From: Pseudomonadota bacterium
GTDB lineage: Bacteria; Pseudomonadota; Gammaproteobacteria; Pseudomonadales; Pseudohongiellaceae
Length of the DNA stretch: 64,000 nucleotides
Reading direction: 5' to 3'
Assembly (NCBI GenBank): GCA_027623555.1
Contig: JAQBSZ010000002.1
Location: 186,001-250,000, forward strand
Below the pieces are notes generated by a model. The model was not told where the DNA came from and made no database searches. It saw nothing but the letters and a program-made list of their open reading frames with translations. Numbering within the stretch: position 1 is the first letter of the stretch; each line of letters begins with the position of its first letter. Shown here piece by piece: positions 8,779-40,475 of this stretch. The position numbers and the translations under genes were made by a program.

Positions 8779-9617
8779 CTGAGCTGCCGTGTGGTCTGAA
8801 TATTGTTGTTGCACATCAGTTAGAGGCCGAGCCGCTAATCGATTGCCTGGGACTAATGCCGGGAAAAAGCAAACACGGTCTCACGATCTATGGGAATGAA
8901 AGAGGCCTCAGCCTGATTATCAGCGGCATGGGACAATCGGCGGCACAGGCTGCCACCGCCAGGTTAGCGCGACACCATAGTGAAACAACGCGAGGGCGAG
9001 CGGCCTGGCTGAATTTTGGTATTGCCGGGCATAGGTCAGCCGAGATTGGCACCAGCGTGCTCGCCAACAAGATATCGGAACGAGCTAGCGGAGCAGCGGT
9101 CTATCCAGCGGTGCTGCTCAAGTCGTTGCCGAGTTCAGCGGTGATCACAGTAGCAGCGCCTGAACTGGACTATGTTGAAGACGCGGCATTTGACATGGAA
9201 GCGTTTGGTTTCTGGTCTGCCGCGGTGCAGTGCGGCAGCCTGGAGTTGATCCAGGTCTGCAAATTAATCTCGGACAATCCTTCCAGGCCTGCCGATAGAG
9301 TCGACCTGGCCACGCTCAAGGATTTTGTGTATTCATGCACCGAACCGGTGAAGCAAGTAGTGGCCGAGATGTTATCGCTCAGTGAAGAGTTTAACCGCAT
9401 CTATCAGGATCCCGCGGAATTTGCGCAAATCAACAAGCGCTACAGACTGAGCGTGACACAGCAGCATCAACTCAGAGCGCTTTGTCGACGTTTTCATGCG
9501 CTGAACAAGGATGCACAGTTGGAGGAGTTCGTTGGCTCGAAAGCAGTCTCGGGAACTCAGTTGCTGCGTAATCTCGAAGCTTGCCTCGCCGCCGAGCGAC
9601 CATCGAGGTCAGGCTAG
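8775..9617 (+). CDS. Nucleoside phosphorylase/nucleosidase-superfamily protein
   Basis: 280 residues. The first 160 resemble the purine nucleoside phosphorylase/MTA-SAH nucleosidase fold: a glycine-rich GMGQSAAQAA turn, NFGIAGH, and AAFDMEAFGF (residues 137-146), whose Glu142 matches the ribose-binding Glu of the family. The C-terminal 120 residues are helical and not part of the standard fold. It would cleave a nucleoside-like N-glycosidic bond. Coupled to the upstream GT2 by ATGA and to the radical SAM gene by a one-base TAGTG overlap, so the three proteins are probably made together. Confidence 0.7.
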   Translation: MTELPCGLNIVVAHQLEAEPLIDCLGLMPGKSKHGLTIYGNERGLSLIISGMGQSAAQAATARLARHHSETTRGRAAWLNFGIAGHRSAEIGTSVLANKISERASGAAVYPAVLLKSLPSSAVITVAAPELDYVEDAAFDMEAFGFWSAAVQCGSLELIQVCKLISDNPSRPADRVDLATLKDFVYSCTEPVKQVVAEMLSLSEEFNRIYQDPAEFAQINKRYRLSVTQQHQLRALCRRFHALNKDAQLEEFVGSKAVSGTQLLRNLEACLAAERPSRSG

Positions 9618-10597
9618 TGTTTTCTGCCATCTACATTGAAGAAGAGGTTAAGGACCATGCCAGGGTAAAGGAAATTCTCGCGCGGTTTACCGGCGTGCCG
9701 CAGATTAGTTGCGAACGGTTCGGGGAGATATTCAATCGCAAGGCACAGAACTTTCGACTTCAGAAGCAGGCACCTGCACTGATATTAGCAAAAAAATACG
9801 GCAAGCTGGTGTTGCCGGCGCCCGCTGGTTATGGGTTCGAGGGCGGTGCCAGTTTTTATTTTTCCCATATGATGAATTGTGTTTATGATTGCCGGTATTG
9901 CTTCCTGCAGGGAATGTATCGTTCCGCAAATTATGTGCTATTCGTAAACTACGAAGATTTCGAGTCCGCTTTACTGGAAAGCATGCATGACTCAGCCGGT
10001 CCGTCTATATATTACAGTGGATACGACTGCGACAGCCTGGCGCTGGAACCGGTGAGTACGTTCTGTCGCTGTTTCCTTCCCTTGTTCGAGAGAAATCCCC
10101 AGGCTACCCTGGAAATTCGTACCAAAAGCACCCAGGTAAGAAGCCTGCTCGAAGTGTCGCCTTTGAAGAATTGTGTCATTGCCATGAGCTTCACCTGCCA
10201 CGAGGCTTCTCTTCAGTGGGAACATAGGGTACCGTCGATTGCCAAACGCATTGAAGCCTTGCAAAAGTTACAGAAGGCCGGATGGCCAATTGCGCTGCGT
10301 TTTGAACCATTGATCTATGAGCCGTTGGCAAGACAGCACTATCAGCGCCTGTTTGAGGAAATTTTCGCTGTTCTGGATGTGGCTTCGATCCATTCAATAA
10401 GCACGGGAGATTTCAGAATGCCGATAGAGTTTATGAAGAACATAATCAGGCTGTATCCCGATGAGGCCCTCTTTGCCAGGCCAATGGAAATGGAAGACGG
10501 GATGATGTCACTGAGCCATCAACAGGATTGGCCAGCCCAGATCGAGGAATTACTAATGAAATATATATCACCGGAACAATATTATCGCTGCGCCTAG
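9617..10597 (+). CDS. SPL-family (spore photoproduct lyase-like) radical SAM protein
   Basis: 326 residues from the GTG at 9617, preceded by GAGGTCAGG; a start at 9581 would overlap the upstream gene by 37 bases without need. The radical SAM cluster motif CVYDCRYC has Cys88, Cys92 and Cys95, the CxxxCxxC spacing with the Tyr-Cys pair as in SplB. The domain covers nearly the whole protein. True SplB repairs thymine spore photoproduct in endospore formers, which this organism is not expected to be. The substrate here is unknown. Operon partners suggest a modified nucleoside or nucleotide. Confidence 0.8.
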   Translation: MFSAIYIEEEVKDHARVKEILARFTGVPQISCERFGEIFNRKAQNFRLQKQAPALILAKKYGKLVLPAPAGYGFEGGASFYFSHMMNCVYDCRYCFLQGMYRSANYVLFVNYEDFESALLESMHDSAGPSIYYSGYDCDSLALEPVSTFCRCFLPLFERNPQATLEIRTKSTQVRSLLEVSPLKNCVIAMSFTCHEASLQWEHRVPSIAKRIEALQKLQKAGWPIALRFEPLIYEPLARQHYQRLFEEIFAVLDVASIHSISTGDFRMPIEFMKNIIRLYPDEALFARPMEMEDGMMSLSHQQDWPAQIEELLMKYISPEQYYRCA

Positions 10598-27589: not shown

Positions 27590-27832
27590 GTAGGATAGCG
27601 TCAGCTATCCGGCAGCAACGATTGCATGAACAATCCGGCCGTAGGATATCGTCAGCTATCCGGCAGCAAGGATTGCATGAACAATCCGGCCGTAGGATAT
27701 CGTCAGCTATCCGGCAGCAAGGATTGTATGAACAATCCGGCCGTAGGATATCGTCAGCTATCCGGCAGCAAGGATTGTATGAACAATCCGGCCGTAGGAT
27801 ATCGCCAGCTATCCGGTAGCAAGGATTGCCTC
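27590..27832 (+). repeat. Tandem array of a 51-bp hairpin-forming unit (about 4.7 copies)
   Basis: Units start at 27590, 27641, 27692, 27743 and 27794, with near-identical sequence. Each holds two inverted repeats: ggata...tatcc (nearly gccg-flanked by cggc) and ggattg-catgaa-caatcc. Because 51 is a multiple of three and the unit has few stops, several frames are open. These look like artefacts, not genes. Confidence 0.85.
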
Positions 27833-27959: not shown

Positions 27960-29189
27960 ATGGAAATTCTAAACGACCTGTCAACGATCACCTGGACCCT
28001 GGTTATTTCCATGCTGCTGCTGATCGGCTATTTCCACGGTCCCAGCTATTCCATGCAGACGGTTAGAAGCGCGCCTTCCATACTCACCAGTTTAGGGATC
28101 TTCGGAACCTTCCTCGGCATTGCCTTTGGCCTGATGCAGTTCGACAGTGCCGATATCGAAGCCAGTGTCCCGGCAATGATCGATGGACTGGGTGTCGCCG
28201 TCTGGTCGTCAATCGTTGGCATACTCGGCGCGCTGAGTATTCGCTTGCGCCATGCCCTGCAATCGATTCGCCAGACAGCGCGTAATGATCGGCCACAAGC
28301 TTCAGTGAACGATTTAAATGAAGCCATCGGCGCCCTCAATGAAAATCTCAATGTACTGCGTAGTGAAGCTCAAGCGGACGCGGCCCTGCTGTTGGAATCC
28401 AATCGCAGCTACCAGGAACAAATGGTCGATGCGAATACCAACGCCCTGACCGGTGCATTGACCACAGTTATGACAGAATTCAACAGTCGCATCGAAGTGC
28501 AATACGGGGAGAATTTTCAGAAATTCAATGAGTCGCTGGGTCACTTGTTGAACTGGCAACAGTCCTATTCCAGTCAATTGGATGAAATGCTGAAGGCACA
28601 ACAGGCCAGCATCGACGTAATTCGGTATGCCAGTCATTCCTATGAGGAGATGATTGAGCATTCCCGAGAATTTAATGCCGTAGCGGCATCCCTGGGCGAA
28701 CTATTGGGTGGACTGGAACAGCAGACGAGAAACCTGGACGGTTATCTGTCAGGCCTGTCGGGATTGGTCGGGCAGGCATCGGCCGGACTACCTGCGCTGG
28801 GGGACTACGTGACCGAGCTTACCGTCAAACTCAGTCAAAGCATTGAGCATAACAACGAGAGCCTCACCCAGGTGTTGACCAAGGCGGCCAGCGATATCTC
28901 GCTCACGGTAGAGCAGGTAACCCAGAGTCTGGCGAGTTCGGTGTTACAGGCCCACAGTGGACTGGCAGAACATGTGCAAGCAATGACCTACAAGACCGAT
29001 GCCCATATGCAACTACTGGACGAATCCATGGAGAAGGAACTGACCCAGGCCCTGCAAACCTTCGGCTACCAGTTAACCGCCCTGTCGGAGAAGTTCGTCA
29101 ACGACTACATGCCTCTAACCGATCGACTCCGCGAGCTGTTGGCGATAGCGGAATTGCAGTCTGGTAAGCATTCGCAAACAGCGAAATAA
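27960..29189 (+). CDS. ZorA-like MotA/TolQ/ExbB-family channel protein with cytoplasmic coiled-coil tail
   Basis: 409 residues. Membrane helices near 10-26, 41-60 and 75-95. The second carries SLGIFGTFLGIAFGL and the third GLGVAVWSSIVGILG, the conserved MotA/ExbB pore pattern. From about residue 100 to the end it is a long helical, Gln- and Glu-rich tail, as in ZorA of the Zorya anti-phage system. It would form a pentamer around a ZorB-like dimer and use proton or sodium flow. The tail is shorter than I recall for E. coli ZorA. The next gene encodes the ZorB-like partner. Alternative: a flagellum-independent stator of another kind. Confidence 0.7.
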   Translation: MEILNDLSTITWTLVISMLLLIGYFHGPSYSMQTVRSAPSILTSLGIFGTFLGIAFGLMQFDSADIEASVPAMIDGLGVAVWSSIVGILGALSIRLRHALQSIRQTARNDRPQASVNDLNEAIGALNENLNVLRSEAQADAALLLESNRSYQEQMVDANTNALTGALTTVMTEFNSRIEVQYGENFQKFNESLGHLLNWQQSYSSQLDEMLKAQQASIDVIRYASHSYEEMIEHSREFNAVAASLGELLGGLEQQTRNLDGYLSGLSGLVGQASAGLPALGDYVTELTVKLSQSIEHNNESLTQVLTKAASDISLTVEQVTQSLASSVLQAHSGLAEHVQAMTYKTDAHMQLLDESMEKELTQALQTFGYQLTALSEKFVNDYMPLTDRLRELLAIAELQSGKHSQTAK

Positions 29190-29206
29190 ACTGGAAGCCA
29201 TTTGTC

Positions 29207-29920
29207 ATGTTAAGCGGTGAATTGGAACAGGAACACGTGCATGAACAAGAAGAACATTGGATTGCCGTCAGCGATCTGATGAGTGGTCTGATGATGCTGT
29301 TCCTGCTCATCGCTGTGATGTATCTCGTTATAGTGGAACGAAAGAACGACGAGATCGAACGCGTCGTAGTACTCTATGAAGACTTGCGCGAAGAGTTGTA
29401 CCAGGATCTGCAAACTGAGTTCGGCAACGATCTGCCTCTGTGGGGAGCAGAGCTGGGTGAGGATCTCAAGCTACGTTTCACCAATACCGACCTGCTGTTT
29501 GAAGAGGGTGAATCGAGTCTCAAGGCGGATTTCAGCCTGATACTTGCAGACTTCTTCCCCCGCTATGTGGCTATTCTCACGTCAGAAAAATATCGGGATG
29601 AGATTCTCGAAGTGAGGATAGAAGGGCACACCTCCAGTTCCTGGTCCCAGGCCCAATCCAGTGATGAGGCCTATATGCGTAACATGGCACTGTCCCAGGA
29701 GAGAACCCGTACCACCCTGGGTACCATACTGGATTTGCCGAGTGTTGCCCACGAGAAACAGTGGTTAAGGGAACGGCTCACCGCGAATGGCTTGTCTTCC
29801 TCTCAGCTTATAAACACGGCAGATGGCCAGGAAGACGCCGACCGTTCCCGCCGGGTCGAATTTGTCGTGGTGACCGACGCCGAGACCCGGCTGTCGACAA
29901 TTTTGCAGGAGATCAGGTAG
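29207..29920 (+). CDS. ZorB-like MotB/OmpA-family stator protein
   Basis: 237 residues. After a short acidic cytoplasmic N-terminus, one membrane helix (about 19-43) reads VSDLMSGLMMLFLLIAVMYL. Asp23 in DLMSGLM is the ion-binding Asp of the ZorB/MotB family. The periplasmic part is an OmpA-like domain with EGHTSS (139-144) and RSRRVEF near 215, the peptidoglycan-binding marks. Follows the ZorA-like gene after 17 bases. Together they would make an ion-driven motor anchored to the cell wall. Confidence 0.7.
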   Translation: MLSGELEQEHVHEQEEHWIAVSDLMSGLMMLFLLIAVMYLVIVERKNDEIERVVVLYEDLREELYQDLQTEFGNDLPLWGAELGEDLKLRFTNTDLLFEEGESSLKADFSLILADFFPRYVAILTSEKYRDEILEVRIEGHTSSSWSQAQSSDEAYMRNMALSQERTRTTLGTILDLPSVAHEKQWLRERLTANGLSSSQLINTADGQEDADRSRRVEFVVVTDAETRLSTILQEIR

Positions 29921-29929
29921 TCCTATCCC

Positions 29930-30547
29930 GTGGAACTCGAAGACTTCACAGAATTCGCCGCCTTTAATTCCTTACGAGCGAAGATGGGCACCGACAAGCT
30001 CGGTTACTTCGAGCTTTTCGATCCTGGGGTTCACCTTACCGGTAACGAGCGGTCCGAACTGGAAAACGGGGGTGTGCTGAGAAAGCTGCAGGAGATAAGA
30101 GTGCTTCCAGACAAGACGCTCGCGCTCAAGAATAGCCGCGTGCTTGCCTACCTTCCCGATGAGAGTTGGTACCGGTCGCGTCGCGAATATCCTACCTATC
30201 ATGTGGCGCTGTGCTCGGTACTGGAACAATCCAGGAATGAACATCCGGATAGGGAATACCTGGCGACTACACGCCTGGCGGATGACTACAATTTGCTCAA
30301 GATTCGCCCGGGTGGAGATGTCAGCGTCGTAGAGCACGGATTTGTCGTGTGTAAGCAATGCCTGCACGCATTACGTTACAAGAACTATGACGAATACCGG
30401 AATCGACGTCGTGGATATAGCCAGAAAGTCTTGAGCGACTTTAACCTGAAAGAATTCTACCGGCGCTACCAACAATATCCCCTCAGTTTCAGTGCGAGCA
30501 GGAACGATCGTGAAGTTAATGAGACCGGCAATAACAATGAGTCCTGA
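29930..30547 (+). CDS. Cys-containing protein of unknown function, third gene of the ZorAB-like operon
   Basis: 205 residues starting at GTG, 9 bases after the ZorB-like stop. No known domain is recognised. Visible marks are YHVALCSVLEQ (Cys95) and a C-terminal FVVCKQCLHALRY (Cys141, Cys144), which could bind zinc, followed by a Tyr- and Arg-rich segment. No signal peptide or membrane helix, so cytoplasmic. It does not look like ZorC, ZorD or ZorE. If the operon is a defence system, this would be the effector or sensor (inference). Confidence 0.6.
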   Translation: MELEDFTEFAAFNSLRAKMGTDKLGYFELFDPGVHLTGNERSELENGGVLRKLQEIRVLPDKTLALKNSRVLAYLPDESWYRSRREYPTYHVALCSVLEQSRNEHPDREYLATTRLADDYNLLKIRPGGDVSVVEHGFVVCKQCLHALRYKNYDEYRNRRRGYSQKVLSDFNLKEFYRRYQQYPLSFSASRNDREVNETGNNNES

Positions 30548-30571: not shown

Positions 30572-31699
30572 GTGAAATCCCCGATCTGTGATTTGCTCGA
30601 TATCGAGTTTCCACTGATCGCCTTCAGTCATTGCCGCGACGTGGTGGTGGAGGTGTCCAAGGCGGGAGGATTCGGTGTGCTGGGAGCGGCGCGATTTTCT
30701 GCAGACACGCTGGAGACCGAACTCAACTGGATTGACGAACACATTGATGGTCATCCTTACGGTGTTGACTTGATCGCACCAACCAGCATGGCCGTGACCA
30801 ATGAAGACGATGCCACAGATGCGATAAAAAAACGCATACCGCAGGAATATTTTGACTTTGCCAGCAGCATTCTTCAGCGGCATGATATCGACGCCAGTAA
30901 CCTCTACACAGAAGACTATAAGCGCAACGCCTTTCTCACCGAAGGTCGGGCCGGCAGCATCATCGATGTAGCCTTCTCCCATCCCATCAAACTGATTGCC
31001 AATGCCCTCGGCGTGCCTCCGCCCTACATGATTGAAATGGGAAAGGCCCAAGGTGTGACCACAGCGGCTCTTATCGGTACCAGAGAACAGGCGCTAAAAC
31101 AGGTGCAGGCTGGCGTCGATGTGGTAGTGGCCTCGGGTACCGAAGCCGGGGGTCACTGCGGTGATGTCTCTACACTGGTATTGGTTCCGGAGGTGTGCAG
31201 TGCGCTTCGTGACTGGGGTGTCCCGGTAGTCGCTGCAGGGGGAATCGTGACCGGCAGGCAGATGGCAGCGTGCATGGCGATGGGCGCTGCCGGGGTGTGG
31301 ACCGGATCAGTGTGGTTAACCTGTGCCGAATCCGACACGCCACCGGCCTTGAAGGAGAAGATGCTGCGGGCTTCTTCCCGGGAAACCGTGCGCTCGCGAT
31401 CGCGCACGGGCAAGCACAGCCGGCAATTGCGCTCGCCCTGGACCGATGCCTGGGAACAGGCAACTGCGCCTAAACCCTTACCCATGCCGCTACAATCACA
31501 GGTTACAGAGAATCCTCTCGCCAGGGTGACCAAGCTCGCGGAGTTGGGGCATGCAGGCGCGCAGCAACTCGCCACATCCTGGGTAGGCCAGGGTGTCGGC
31601 TTGATGAACAGTACCCAATCAGCCCGCGCCATCGTCTATGAATTTATGCAGGACTACCTGAGCGCGGCCGAGCGCTTGCACAGCAGCATAGAAAGCTAA
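30572..31699 (+). CDS. Nitronate monooxygenase-family FMN enzyme
   Basis: 375 residues from a GTG. It has the 2-nitropropane dioxygenase barrel: VSKAGGFGVLGAARF near the N-terminus, GTEAGGHCGDVSTLVLVPEV for FMN phosphate and the catalytic His, and AAGGIVTGRQMAACMAMGAAGVWTG. Follows the third Zor-like gene after 24 bases in the same direction, so it may be read through, but its role is metabolic. It would oxidise a nitronate or similar substrate with oxygen. Confidence 0.8.
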   Translation: MKSPICDLLDIEFPLIAFSHCRDVVVEVSKAGGFGVLGAARFSADTLETELNWIDEHIDGHPYGVDLIAPTSMAVTNEDDATDAIKKRIPQEYFDFASSILQRHDIDASNLYTEDYKRNAFLTEGRAGSIIDVAFSHPIKLIANALGVPPPYMIEMGKAQGVTTAALIGTREQALKQVQAGVDVVVASGTEAGGHCGDVSTLVLVPEVCSALRDWGVPVVAAGGIVTGRQMAACMAMGAAGVWTGSVWLTCAESDTPPALKEKMLRASSRETVRSRSRTGKHSRQLRSPWTDAWEQATAPKPLPMPLQSQVTENPLARVTKLAELGHAGAQQLATSWVGQGVGLMNSTQSARAIVYEFMQDYLSAAERLHSSIES

Positions 31700-31788: not shown

Positions 31789-31796
31789 GGCAATTG

Positions 31797-32114
31797 ATGA
31801 TTTTTATTGAAACTCGGGCTTTCACGAAGTATTTACCCAACTATCTTTCAGACGACGAATATCGAGGATTACAGGCTTACTTGCTGCAGAAGCCTGATAT
31901 CGGGGACATCGTTCGAGATTCTGGCGGAGTCCGAAAAGTCCGCTGGTCTCGGGAAGGTGAAGGTAAAAGTGGTGGAGTGCGAGTTATCTACTACTGGGAA
32001 AAATCTGAATCTGAAATCTGGATGTTGACGATCTATTCGAAATCCGAGAGAGCCTCTATTTCAGGTCCTGACTTGAAACGAATTTGGGAGGCGATTAACC
32101 GTGCAAAATCGTGA
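31797..32114 (+). CDS. higB: RelE/HigB-family type II toxin
   Basis: 105 residues from the ATG at 31797. It has the HigB2/RelE pattern, with DIVRDSGGVRKVRWSREGEG followed by GGVRVIYYW and MLTIYSKSE. Such toxins are ribosome-dependent mRNA endonucleases. Its gene overlaps the HTH antitoxin by 14 bases, toxin first, as in HigBA. Confidence 0.75.
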   Translation: MIFIETRAFTKYLPNYLSDDEYRGLQAYLLQKPDIGDIVRDSGGVRKVRWSREGEGKSGGVRVIYYWEKSESEIWMLTIYSKSERASISGPDLKRIWEAINRAKS

Positions 32115-32388
32115 TATTGGCAAAGAAATTCTTGAAGGTCTGAGTGAGATCAAGAATTTCAAGATAAGTAAACTGAAGCTTCGGGTTACTGAGCTTTCTG
32201 ATCCGTCTGAGCCTAAGATTATTCGAGAAAAGCTAAAACTTTCACAATCTGCTTTTGCAGGATTGTTGGGAGTAAGTACTCGTACCCTGCAAGATTGGGA
32301 GCAGGGTCGAAGAAACCCCCAAGGCCCTGCGATCGCATTACTTCGTATCGCAGAGCAACATCCTGAGGTATTTATAGAACTGAGCTAG
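32101..32388 (+). CDS. higA: HigA-type HTH antitoxin
   Basis: 95 residues from GTG. The C-terminal half is a Cro/C1-type helix-turn-helix (KLSQSAFAGLLGVSTRTLQDWEQGRR) as in HigA2/MqsA antitoxins. The N-terminal half would cover the toxin. Probably binds the 9-bp palindrome at the promoter. Confidence 0.75.
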   Translation: MQNRDIGKEILEGLSEIKNFKISKLKLRVTELSDPSEPKIIREKLKLSQSAFAGLLGVSTRTLQDWEQGRRNPQGPAIALLRIAEQHPEVFIELS

Positions 32389-38036: not shown

Positions 38037-40475
38037 TCAAAGAGCCTGTGCGAGATTTTCCAGCTTCTTGCTACGTTGCCGCTTTCCGGCGCTCGAGTTC
38101 TCTATTTCTAACAGTCCTGGTGCTGCGAATGAAAGATCGCGACGCGACAGAGGGGCATCACCATAGAGTGTGGTGCGCATGCGCGGGAGACGGCCGATGC
38201 TACGGATGGATTCTTCGATCATCGCCGGTGGCCACTCCTGCCCGTAGTCTGCTCCGGCTGCTCGAGTAATACTCTCGTTCATCAAGGTACCGCCGAGATC
38301 ATTAGCGCCAGCCTCCAGACAGGCAACCACGCCTTGCTGCCCCATCTTTACCCAGGAAGCCTGGATATTGTGGATGAGTCCGTGGAATACCAGCCTTGCT
38401 ACGGAGTGCATGAGAATAGCTTCTCTGAAGCTGGGGCCACTGCGGGATTTTCCTTTCAGGTACATGGGAGCTTCCATGTGCACATAAGGCAGCGGCACAA
38501 ACTCGGTGAATCCTCCAGTGCGTTGTTGCAATGCGTGGACTTCCAGCAAGTGGCTGGCCCAATGCCTGGCTTGTTCAACATGTCCGTACATGATGGTAGC
38601 CGTGGTATTAAAGCCAAGCCGATGCGCCGTTTCCATCACTTCAATCCATTGTTCGGTATTCAGCTTATCCGGGCAGATGAGGGCGCGAACGTCATCATGA
38701 AGAATCTCGGCAGCGGTCCCTGGCAGGGTATTCAATCCCACCTGTTTGAGCATGCCCAGAAATTCTTCCAGGCTTACACCCAGCGTCTCGGCGCCTTGCC
38801 AGACTTCCAGCGGAGAGAACGCATGCACATGCATGTCAGGCACGGCCTGTTTTACCGTCGCTACGATATCCAGGTAAGTTTGCCCGGTGTAATCCGGATG
38901 GATACCGCCCTGCATGCAGACTTCGGTAGCACCCCGATCCCAGGCTTCCAGGCAGCGCCGGGCAATTTCTTCAGCGCTGATATCATAGGGCCGACCACGT
39001 AAATTCTCGCTGAACTTGCCTTTGGAAAAAGCACAAAACTGGCATTTGAAATAGCAGACATTTGTGTAGTTAATATTGCGGTTAACCACGTAGCTGACAG
39101 TAGCGCCGTTAACGATCTTTCGCAGCGCATTGGCCTGTGCCGTCACGTAGGCAAAATCAGCACCGCGCACTTCGAAGAGTCGGGTAACCTCGTCGACGTC
39201 GAGTGCAGTCTTGTCGACACATTTCTTGACAATGGTTTGGATGTCGGGAGATACCTCTGCGCTGGTCGGTGAGTCTTCGATGAGCTGTAATTCAAGCGCT
39301 GGCGGCGGATTGCGTTCGCCCGGTTTCCAGTTGTCACGTTTGGCGAAGCCGCCGGCATCTGACAGGTTCCAGACGCTCGGTAATACCCGGTTATCGATCC
39401 ACCTGTCCGGGGCTAACACATAGGATGGATAGACCGTGAGTCGTTGCTCGAGAAATTTTCCGGCCGCTGCGGTTTCCCTCGCTAGTTTATCAAGGTGAGG
39501 CCAGGGCGCTTCCGGATTGACATGATCGGGAGTCAGCGGTGAGACTCCGCCCCAATCATTGATGCCGGCTTTCACCAGCTGTGGCAGCACCCCAGGACTG
39601 AGATTCGGGGGAGCCTGGATATTCATTTCCGCGCCAAAGATCAGTCGCGCTACCGCCAGCGTCCACAGCAATTCGTTAAGATCAGGTTCTGGAGCTTGTG
39701 ACATTTTCGTGTCTGACTTGGCACGAAAATTCTGGATAATGACTTCCTGGATATGCCCGTGGCGCTGATGTAGCTGACGTATCTCCAGCAGCGATTCGAT
39801 GCGTTCCAGGCGTGTCTCACCAATACCAATCAAAATACCGGTAGTAAATGGCACCCCGGCCTGACCGGCCAGTTCCATGGTCTCGATACGCACCGCAGGT
39901 TCCTTATCCGGTGAGCCGTAGTGTGGCATGTCTTTCTCGCATAAGCGGCTAGAGGAGGATTCCAACATTATTCCCATCGAGGCACTGACCTGCCTCAGTC
40001 TGGCAATCTCTTCGGCGGTCATGGTGCCGGCATTGATATGTGGCAGCAGGCCTGTCTCGCTTAAAATTTTACCAGCTATCGCCGTGACGTACTCGATAGT
40101 GGTCGCAAAACCCATCTCAGCCAGCGCCTCTCTGGTGGCCCGATAGCGTAATTCGGGTTTCTCGCCAAGCGTAAGCAGGGCTTCCTGGCAGCCGAGCATT
40201 GCACCCTCGGCACAGAGCCGGAGTACTTCCTCTTCACTCATGAAGGGTTTGTCGATGCGTTTCGGCGTCTTGGCAAAAGTACAGTAATGACAGACATCCC
40301 TGCACAAGTGGGTGAGGGGTATAAATACCTTGCGGGAATAGGTGATGATATTGCGATGATGTAGATCGCGCAGTGCGCAGGCCTGTTCCGCCAGCAGTGC
40401 GGTGTCTTCACATTCAGCCAGCGCCAGCGCCTGGCTATCGCTCAGCTTGTCAATTGCGTCTGAATCGGTGTGCAA
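38037..40475 (-). CDS. fbiC: FO synthase, fused CofG-CofH (FbiC)
   Basis: 812 residues, with two radical SAM domains. The N-terminal (CofG-like) has Cys58, Cys62 and Cys65 in CRDVCHYC. The C-terminal (CofH-like) has Cys474, Cys478 and Cys481 in CYFKCQFC. The fusion makes 7,8-didemethyl-8-hydroxy-5-deazariboflavin (FO) from tyrosine and a ribityluracil, the core of coenzyme F420. The start is a TTG with GGGGA 7 bases upstream. Fused FbiC is usual in actinobacteria and rare in gammaproteobacteria. No cofC, cofD or cofE is in this window. Confidence 0.9.
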   Translation of the reverse strand: MHTDSDAIDKLSDSQALALAECEDTALLAEQACALRDLHHRNIITYSRKVFIPLTHLCRDVCHYCTFAKTPKRIDKPFMSEEEVLRLCAEGAMLGCQEALLTLGEKPELRYRATREALAEMGFATTIEYVTAIAGKILSETGLLPHINAGTMTAEEIARLRQVSASMGIMLESSSSRLCEKDMPHYGSPDKEPAVRIETMELAGQAGVPFTTGILIGIGETRLERIESLLEIRQLHQRHGHIQEVIIQNFRAKSDTKMSQAPEPDLNELLWTLAVARLIFGAEMNIQAPPNLSPGVLPQLVKAGINDWGGVSPLTPDHVNPEAPWPHLDKLARETAAAGKFLEQRLTVYPSYVLAPDRWIDNRVLPSVWNLSDAGGFAKRDNWKPGERNPPPALELQLIEDSPTSAEVSPDIQTIVKKCVDKTALDVDEVTRLFEVRGADFAYVTAQANALRKIVNGATVSYVVNRNINYTNVCYFKCQFCAFSKGKFSENLRGRPYDISAEEIARRCLEAWDRGATEVCMQGGIHPDYTGQTYLDIVATVKQAVPDMHVHAFSPLEVWQGAETLGVSLEEFLGMLKQVGLNTLPGTAAEILHDDVRALICPDKLNTEQWIEVMETAHRLGFNTTATIMYGHVEQARHWASHLLEVHALQQRTGGFTEFVPLPYVHMEAPMYLKGKSRSGPSFREAILMHSVARLVFHGLIHNIQASWVKMGQQGVVACLEAGANDLGGTLMNESITRAAGADYGQEWPPAMIEESIRSIGRLPRMRTTLYGDAPLSRRDLSFAAPGLLEIENSSAGKRQRSKKLENLAQAL

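Follow-up and report, generated by a model that had tools for sequence, protein, structure and literature searches.

The window analysed here, a 64,000-nt stretch of contig JAQBSZ010000002.1 (positions 186,001 to 250,000; assembly GCA_027623555.1, family Pseudohongiellaceae), carries a three-gene operon encoding a ZorA/ZorB motor of the type II Zorya family together with a third protein, E', which corresponds to the N-terminal domain of the effector ZorE without its HNH nuclease. Short operons of this kind formed one clade in ZorB trees, recurred in the same gene order and were near-core in two families of the order. We tentatively favour, on sequence evidence, a nuclease-less, domesticated and vertically inherited Zorya type II motor in which E' may link the motor to DNA or another cytoplasmic target without cutting. 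The operon comprises the following features (aa, amino acids):

27960..29189, + strand: zorA-like gene (409 aa), a MotA/ExbB-like motor subunit with a long cytoplasmic tail; matches PADLOC ZorA2 and the ZorA of structure 8VVI
29207..29920, + strand: zorB-like gene (237 aa), a MotB-like subunit with channel Asp23 and a peptidoglycan-binding OmpA-like domain; matches PADLOC ZorB2 and the ZorB of 8VVI
29930..30547, + strand: third gene, E' (205 aa, GTG start), the DUF8245 domain of ZorE without the HNH nuclease
29930..30031, + strand: N-terminal motif of E' (residues 1-34), common also to third genes without the Zn domain; a putative motor-docking segment
30200..30361, + strand: predicted Zn site of E' (His91, Cys95, Cys141 and Cys144), invariant in alignments of 18, 20, 94 and 10 rows

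The first-pass annotation had described a three-gene ZorA/ZorB-like operon with pore helices, a long tail and DLMSGLM and OmpA marks, and this was borne out by the open reading frames (ORFs) and by profile searches, which it had suggested. The zorA-like product matched PADLOC ZorA2 at 1.4e-88 and the zorB-like product ZorB2 at 3e-88, and the solved type II ZorAB of Sulfuricurvum kujiense (8VVI; PMC11890865) was matched at 1.8e-37 and 5.2e-48, respectively. The motif SDLMSGLMM was present in ZorB, and the OmpA match was weak (0.00027, under the Pfam cut-off). Judged by these matches, both motor components of Zorya type II are present. In NCBIfam, ZorA scored 116 bits where the strict equivalog cut-off is 700, and ZorB 214.2 bits where it is 400; HNH-bearing relatives likewise stayed under theirs (ZorE of L108: 305.2 of 600).

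ZorAB has been described as an ion-driven motor of 5:2 stoichiometry whose ZorB domains bind peptidoglycan, and type II was judged closer to proton-driven motors (PMC11890865). The channel Asp, the ZorA pore helices and tail, and the peptidoglycan-binding domain were all present in the window proteins, suggesting that they belong to this class as far as sequence can indicate. Specifically, Asp23 was invariant in 16/16 aligned ZorB sequences, and the EGHT and tail-tip motifs of ZorA were recognized by alignment. The densest conservation within the ZorA tail was found at its tip (window TFGYQLTALSEKFVNDYMPLTDRL, 14-row alignment). No match to ZorC, ZorD, ZorF or ZorG was found among six window proteins, nor in 25 of 26 PADLOC families listed for 35 window proteins (12-48 kb). 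A promoter and terminator scan gave site counts no higher than in shuffles.

E' starts 9 bases past the zorB stop and carries its CxxC at residues 141-144, as first reported; the description of this protein as unrecognised did not hold. E' matched four PADLOC ZorE2 profiles, the best at 1.2e-29 over profile positions 3-188 of 282, which corresponds to the DUF8245 part of ZorE, and a new protein family was rejected on this match. The NCBIfam ZorE match was weak (4.6e-9), and the Pfam copy used gave none. PF26739 is precomputed in Pfam on E' relatives (among the 120 listed of 162) and is probably DUF8245, given its same position in ZorE-like proteins such as P0199 (PF26739 + PF13392). ZorE consists of an N-terminal DUF8245 domain followed by an HNHc domain (PMC13192584, a preprint). 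The structural model of E' had a predicted local distance difference test score of 88.2 and a predicted template modelling score of 0.78, and a search of its sequence against solved structures gave a chance match only.

In an alignment with E. coli ZorE (NZ_CP127005.1), H90 was kept as window H91 and the paired cysteines were kept, while E' had no residues at H226, K231, N234, H235, H247 and H253. Therefore, E' appears to be a ZorE without the nuclease. The substitutions H90A, Y189F, H226A and K231A each abolish Zorya II defence (PMC13192584, a preprint). The HNH nickase of Zorya type II is accordingly missing here: the match ends at profile position 188 and the catalytic His/Lys/Asn columns have no counterpart. 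The earlier statement that ZorC, ZorD and ZorE are lacking thus stands for ZorC and ZorD, and of ZorE only the nuclease is gone. In the window's own genome, the HNH-containing ZorE profile A4 had no match other than E' at E <= 0.001, with five of the eight first-look candidates scored; unrelated nucleases would escape this profile. An HNH supplied by the next gene was rejected on this result and because that gene encodes a nitronate monooxygenase. No description of nuclease-less ZorAB-DUF8245 operons was found among the papers listed from the open-licence PubMed Central literature, which were mostly off topic where only part of the matches was listed, and DUF8245 was named in one paper; the passages available of PMC11890865, PMC13192584, PMC12505986, PMC8565338 and PMC12904381 do not describe an operon of this type.

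The short form was widespread in the order. Among 390 genomes, 38 had the short form, nine a ZorE-length form and two both, as classed by open-frame length, and an HNH-containing profile found ten complete or nearly complete ZorE in the same set. The short form spans eight families and was found in 18/22 genomes of f6 (which includes Saccharospirillum and Reinekea) and 34/44 of f39 (which includes Bermanella marisrubri and, by similarity, Thalassolituus), three of the f39 genomes also having a long ZorE. In wider samples, matches were obtained in 6/369 genomes of the class and 7/299 of the phylum, the window's own genome counted; the others were HNH-bearing except G529. Many short-operon contigs are metagenome bins, and single-contig genomes are included (e.g. 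G050 and G405).

In the ZorB tree of 53 rows, 34 short-operon rows fell on one side of a branch with support 98/97, and in 99% of 200 bootstrap trees one change was enough to separate short from HNH. The support was 93/87 once four long-branch rows were dropped. With a distant ZorB outgroup (43 rows, a reduced set), the short clade had support 97/93 and was placed among the HNH rows L133, L123 and L128. A single nuclease loss is the simplest reading, with loss rather than late gain as the probable direction; the short form may also predate the nuclease.

The short length of E' was conserved. In 202 pooled relatives (120 listed of 162, 120 listed of 293, and 86 of 86), 197 of the matches listed were 150-240 aa long, two were longer and three shorter. 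The first of these searches (E <= 0.001) gave the 162 relatives, of which the 120 listed span 182-225 aa, and the multi-family profile search gave the 86, two of them over 240 aa. The ratio of nonsynonymous to synonymous substitution rates (dN/dS, NG86 method) of E' was 0.027 for L018/L021 and 0.151 for L093/L121, the two pairs with measurable dS; dS was saturated for L105/L118 and for all six comparisons with the window. Judged by its length, its invariant His/Cys site and its low dN/dS, the short E' is not decaying. A decaying or incomplete Zorya II, to which broken copies at the same locus (L036, L037, L038 and L042) and remnants (L197 and L198) would point, is therefore very improbable and was rejected on conservation and dN/dS, the short end-point recurring in eight families.

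In the window's own genus, g1, the operon occupies one locus. A scan of named genomes gave 25 loci, of which 22 (L018-L038 and L042) have the window's flanks as far as the contigs reach; 14 of the 22 are from g1 and eight were taken as close kin on identity and synteny. In the sampled family, 17/99 genomes had a match, all within g1 (17/46). Full-length open E' was found in 12/46 g1 genomes, broken copies or remnants in 5/46 (G089, G067, G098, G088 and G081) and no match in 29/46. Additionally, zorA of L034 (G087) appears broken, and L031 (G077) ends at a contig edge. A flank gene was present in 31/31 genomes (30 strongly), comprising the 29 g1 genomes without a match plus G081 and G088. At 30 of these flank sites (G094 not included), 14 had the flanks without the operon between them, two held a remnant, seven had a larger gap from which further flank genes were also missing, and at seven the second flank was unseen. 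The simplest reading is an ancestral locus that was frequently lost.

A modular organization of the third gene was suggested by family f71, in which all four genomes (4/4) have ZorB. Their ZorA is giant: it reaches 1340 aa in G529, G1129 and G1130 each have one of 993 aa, and the open frame of G1128 spans 1202 aa. Of E', their third genes retain the N-terminal motif alone, joined to a basic tail and lacking the Zn domain. In G529 (145 aa) and G1128 (231 aa) the motif is followed by Lys/Ala-rich tails; G1129 and G1130 encode two nearly identical 60-aa proteins of the motif and a short basic tail. The motif scored 46-53 bits in the third proteins of G529, G1128 and G1130, and did not exceed 10.4 in any of the 2808 shuffles that were scored out of 3000. 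As the motif is found with the Zn domain, with the Zn domain plus HNH or with a basic tail, it appears to be the constant part and the rest exchangeable. The tip of the ZorA tail is the candidate docking site for the motif, being the densest conserved part of the tail.

This adaptor rule does not cover all ZorAB, since some operons carry other third genes: a search of the class with ZorB gave matches in 13/345 genomes, such operons included. The ZorAB operons L149 and L151-L154 (f106 and f97) have third genes of about 250-310 aa that are weakly or not ZorE-like and represent further effector variants. ORF picking missed zorA, zorB and the third gene in L139 and G1128, where they are masked by long open frames on the opposite strand; because of such masking, third genes of this kind may be under-annotated.

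The gene oadB lay upstream on the same strand in 15/27 distinct short-operon genomes from six families (L040 and L088 being one genome, and L096 and L120 confirmed as short), with a gap of 13-259 bp in 13 and of 782 and 900 bp in two, compared with 0/8 HNH operons. The Oad neighbours suggest a Na+ energetics setting and would fit an E' that is a motor regulator or a placeholder capping the ZorA tail, the output being mechanical or ionic at the envelope and unrelated to DNA. That E' stops before the HNH domain, and that the motif is common to variants including the 60-aa third proteins, would fit as well. However, the basic tails of f71 and the DNA-acting HNH form point to DNA, and the oadB adjacency may be ancestral order only, as it was seen in one of nine f39 genomes and in none of the f1 and f16 neighbourhoods. 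We consider such a regulator quite unlikely.

The short form was not found on mobile elements. Queries with window E' and with L102 E' detected no short form among 72,556 plasmids. Plasmid records were matched at 27-29% identity, two by window E' and one by L102 E'; one carries an HNH endonuclease annotation, and the other is matched as well by the HNH part of a ZorE query. Neither window E' nor a long ZorE matched any of 50,697 phages, and a viral-contig scan with A3 gave no short form. HNH-bearing ZorE, in contrast, was sparse and also plasmid-borne: a long query matched 14 plasmid records, 10 of them over at least 80% of the query. Eight selected neighbours of four HNH operons (L108, L142, L114 and L115) comprised DruE, type IIG, type I and type III restriction genes, DzbA and HEC-05, with one lacking a match. 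Thus the accessory, mobile, defence-island setting of Zorya type II did not apply to the short form, with its near-core status in two families, recurrent synteny and absence from the mobile elements searched, yet it was patchy in g1.

These observations bear on whether the operon still serves phage defence, with the motor sensing envelope damage and E' trapping DNA uncut or passing it to a nuclease encoded elsewhere, which we regard as possible and on the unlikely side. The motor families and metal site are those of Zorya II, and the frequent absence in g1 resembles defence turnover. ZorAB recruits ZorE to the membrane during infection in E. coli (PMC11890865); moreover, Zorya II is sensitive to recD loss, and its synergy against one phage tolerates some HNH mutations (PMC13192584, a preprint). 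However, Zorya II on its own no longer defends when it carries HNH mutations such as H226A (PMC13192584), and the near-core status in two families, the recurrent gene order and the lack of the short form on plasmids, phages and viral contigs all argue against defence. Besides Zorya components, the 35 window proteins gave only three or four single-protein matches in the 25 of 26 PADLOC families listed (RT-Protease_XI, 4.5e-14; PycTIR, 7.2e-10; TIR effectors, 7.1e-9), which also counts against it. The first-pass annotation had proposed a new Zorya-type defence system or a related motor with another output, and had named core status in the lineage together with a lack of phage protection as a mark against it. 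The motor part of the first proposal stands and its defence part is weakened, since the operon is near-core in two families of the order, though not in g1; the second proposal probably fits best.

Compared with Zorya type II (ZorA2-ZorB2-ZorE), the window-type operon has the same gene order, the same ZorA and ZorB families and a DUF8245 with the His/Cys metal site; it differs in lacking the HNH domain and in its recurrent genomic position, whereas the HNH form occurs on plasmids and in defence islands. ZorA measured 400-457 aa in 26 short operons, compared with 503-633 aa in eight HNH operons from this order; in compact HNH operons elsewhere (L142-L144) it measured 399-470 aa. The compact HNH-bearing Zorya II operons (NZ_MN657036.1, G869, G924 and G1056) likewise have a compact motor and an N-terminal motif near that of E', but they keep the nuclease, and one is on a plasmid and that of G869 lies beside type I restriction genes. 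The NZ_MN657036.1 operon (L224) occupies a large part of its plasmid, a mobilizable Psychrobacter element of 7.5 kb. Zorya type I (ZorABCD) and type III (ZorABFG) have the ZorAB motor in common, with weaker matches, and their ZorC, ZorD, ZorF and ZorG were unmatched near the window. Flagellar MotAB stators share the A/B motor principle, the channel Asp and the OmpA-like domain; matches to them were weak and under curated cut-offs, and the partner gene here is E' and not a rotor.

In the domesticated motor that we favour, a peptidoglycan-anchored, ion-driven rotary motor of the ZorA5B2 type would derive from type II Zorya, whose effector ZorE would have lost the HNH nickase; a single loss in an ancestor shared by several Pseudomonadales families is the simplest case. 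E' would dock on the cytoplasmic tail of ZorA by its conserved N-terminal helix and present its Zn-containing domain to a target in the cytoplasm. This target would most plausibly be DNA, which E' would leave uncut. The machine would be kept by vertical inheritance and not as a mobile defence module. A bolder version, which we consider unlikely, has the domesticated motor acting mechanically on the cell's own DNA, as a peptidoglycan-anchored, ion-driven rotary shaft linked to the nucleoid by a modular adaptor of a constant docking motif and an exchangeable DNA-binding module, which would be the Zn domain, the Zn domain with the HNH nuclease, or a basic tail resembling histone H1.

Several points weigh against the favoured domesticated motor. 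DNA binding by E' would depend on the Zn domain being the N-terminal half of ZorE, modelled as flanking DNA (PMC13192584, a preprint), and on the f71 tails. Of these, the G1128 tail matched a histone H1-like Pfam family at 35.1 bits, under the curated cut-off of 40, which may reflect composition, and the G529 tail had no Pfam match. Window E' has a net charge of 0 (K+R-D-E), which does not seem to favour nonspecific DNA binding, and its model gave no fold match at E <= 0.001 in PDB and BFVD. In the 43-row ZorB tree the outgroup did not form a single clade, and support for the node that unites L128 with the short clade was weak (91/57). Additionally, the operon is often missing in g1 and hence dispensable there, and other genera of the sampled family had no match (0/53). 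A core location is compatible with defence, and the RT-Protease_XI, PycTIR and TIR effector matches were taken as domain-level.

The neighbourhood of the operon contains the following features:

27590-27829: tandem repeat of a 51-bp unit (4.7 copies), in the gap that separates zorA from the upstream gene
30572-31699: nitronate monooxygenase gene, directly downstream of the operon
31794-32388: RelE-like toxin paired with a helix-turn-helix/MqsA-like antitoxin, in the stretch that separates the operon from the conserved flank

The toxin-antitoxin pair and the repeat array do lie close by, as first annotated. The 51-bp unit was found nowhere else in the window, and neither element was found in 55 relative loci (L018-L042 and L193-L222; repeat at up to 6 of 35 mismatches, tblastn E <= 1e-3); they are therefore probably not parts of the system and were rejected as such. 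A nitronate monooxygenase homologue lies at the same place where the operon is missing or a remnant (L193, L197, L198 and L210). In six genus-type loci (L021 at 9589-10122, L018, L019, L022, L024 and L035), a gene of 177-188 aa without a Pfam match directly follows E', and it persists in L214 after operon loss. Ten window neighbours were metabolic or unassigned by Pfam. The window gene at 38040-40475 encodes a protein of 812 aa that combines two radical-SAM stretches with a C-terminal CofH region; we take it to be FbiC-like and thus a possible coenzyme F420 gene in a gammaproteobacterium.

Because the PADLOC ZorA2, ZorB2 and ZorE2 models all match short operons, defence surveys may count these as Zorya II. 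In a 2026 preprint, ZorE variants were retained only if an endonuclease domain could be recognised, and 47 clusters were discarded as inactive variants (PMC13192584); some of these may belong to the short E' family. Since several families pass on the set without the nuclease as they would any chromosomal gene, it is possibly a defence machine turned to another job. If the domesticated-motor reading is right, not every ZorAB operon would be anti-phage, and one branch would have shed its nuclease and become near-core in two marine-type families, among whose members are Saccharospirillum, Reinekea and Bermanella. The short operons would then offer a natural experiment on motor action without DNA cutting and on effector docking at the ZorA tail, and what a Zorya motor drives would become testable in named hosts. 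If the bolder DNA-motor version were true, they would represent a new class of envelope-to-chromosome motor, a defence system having evolved from or into it.

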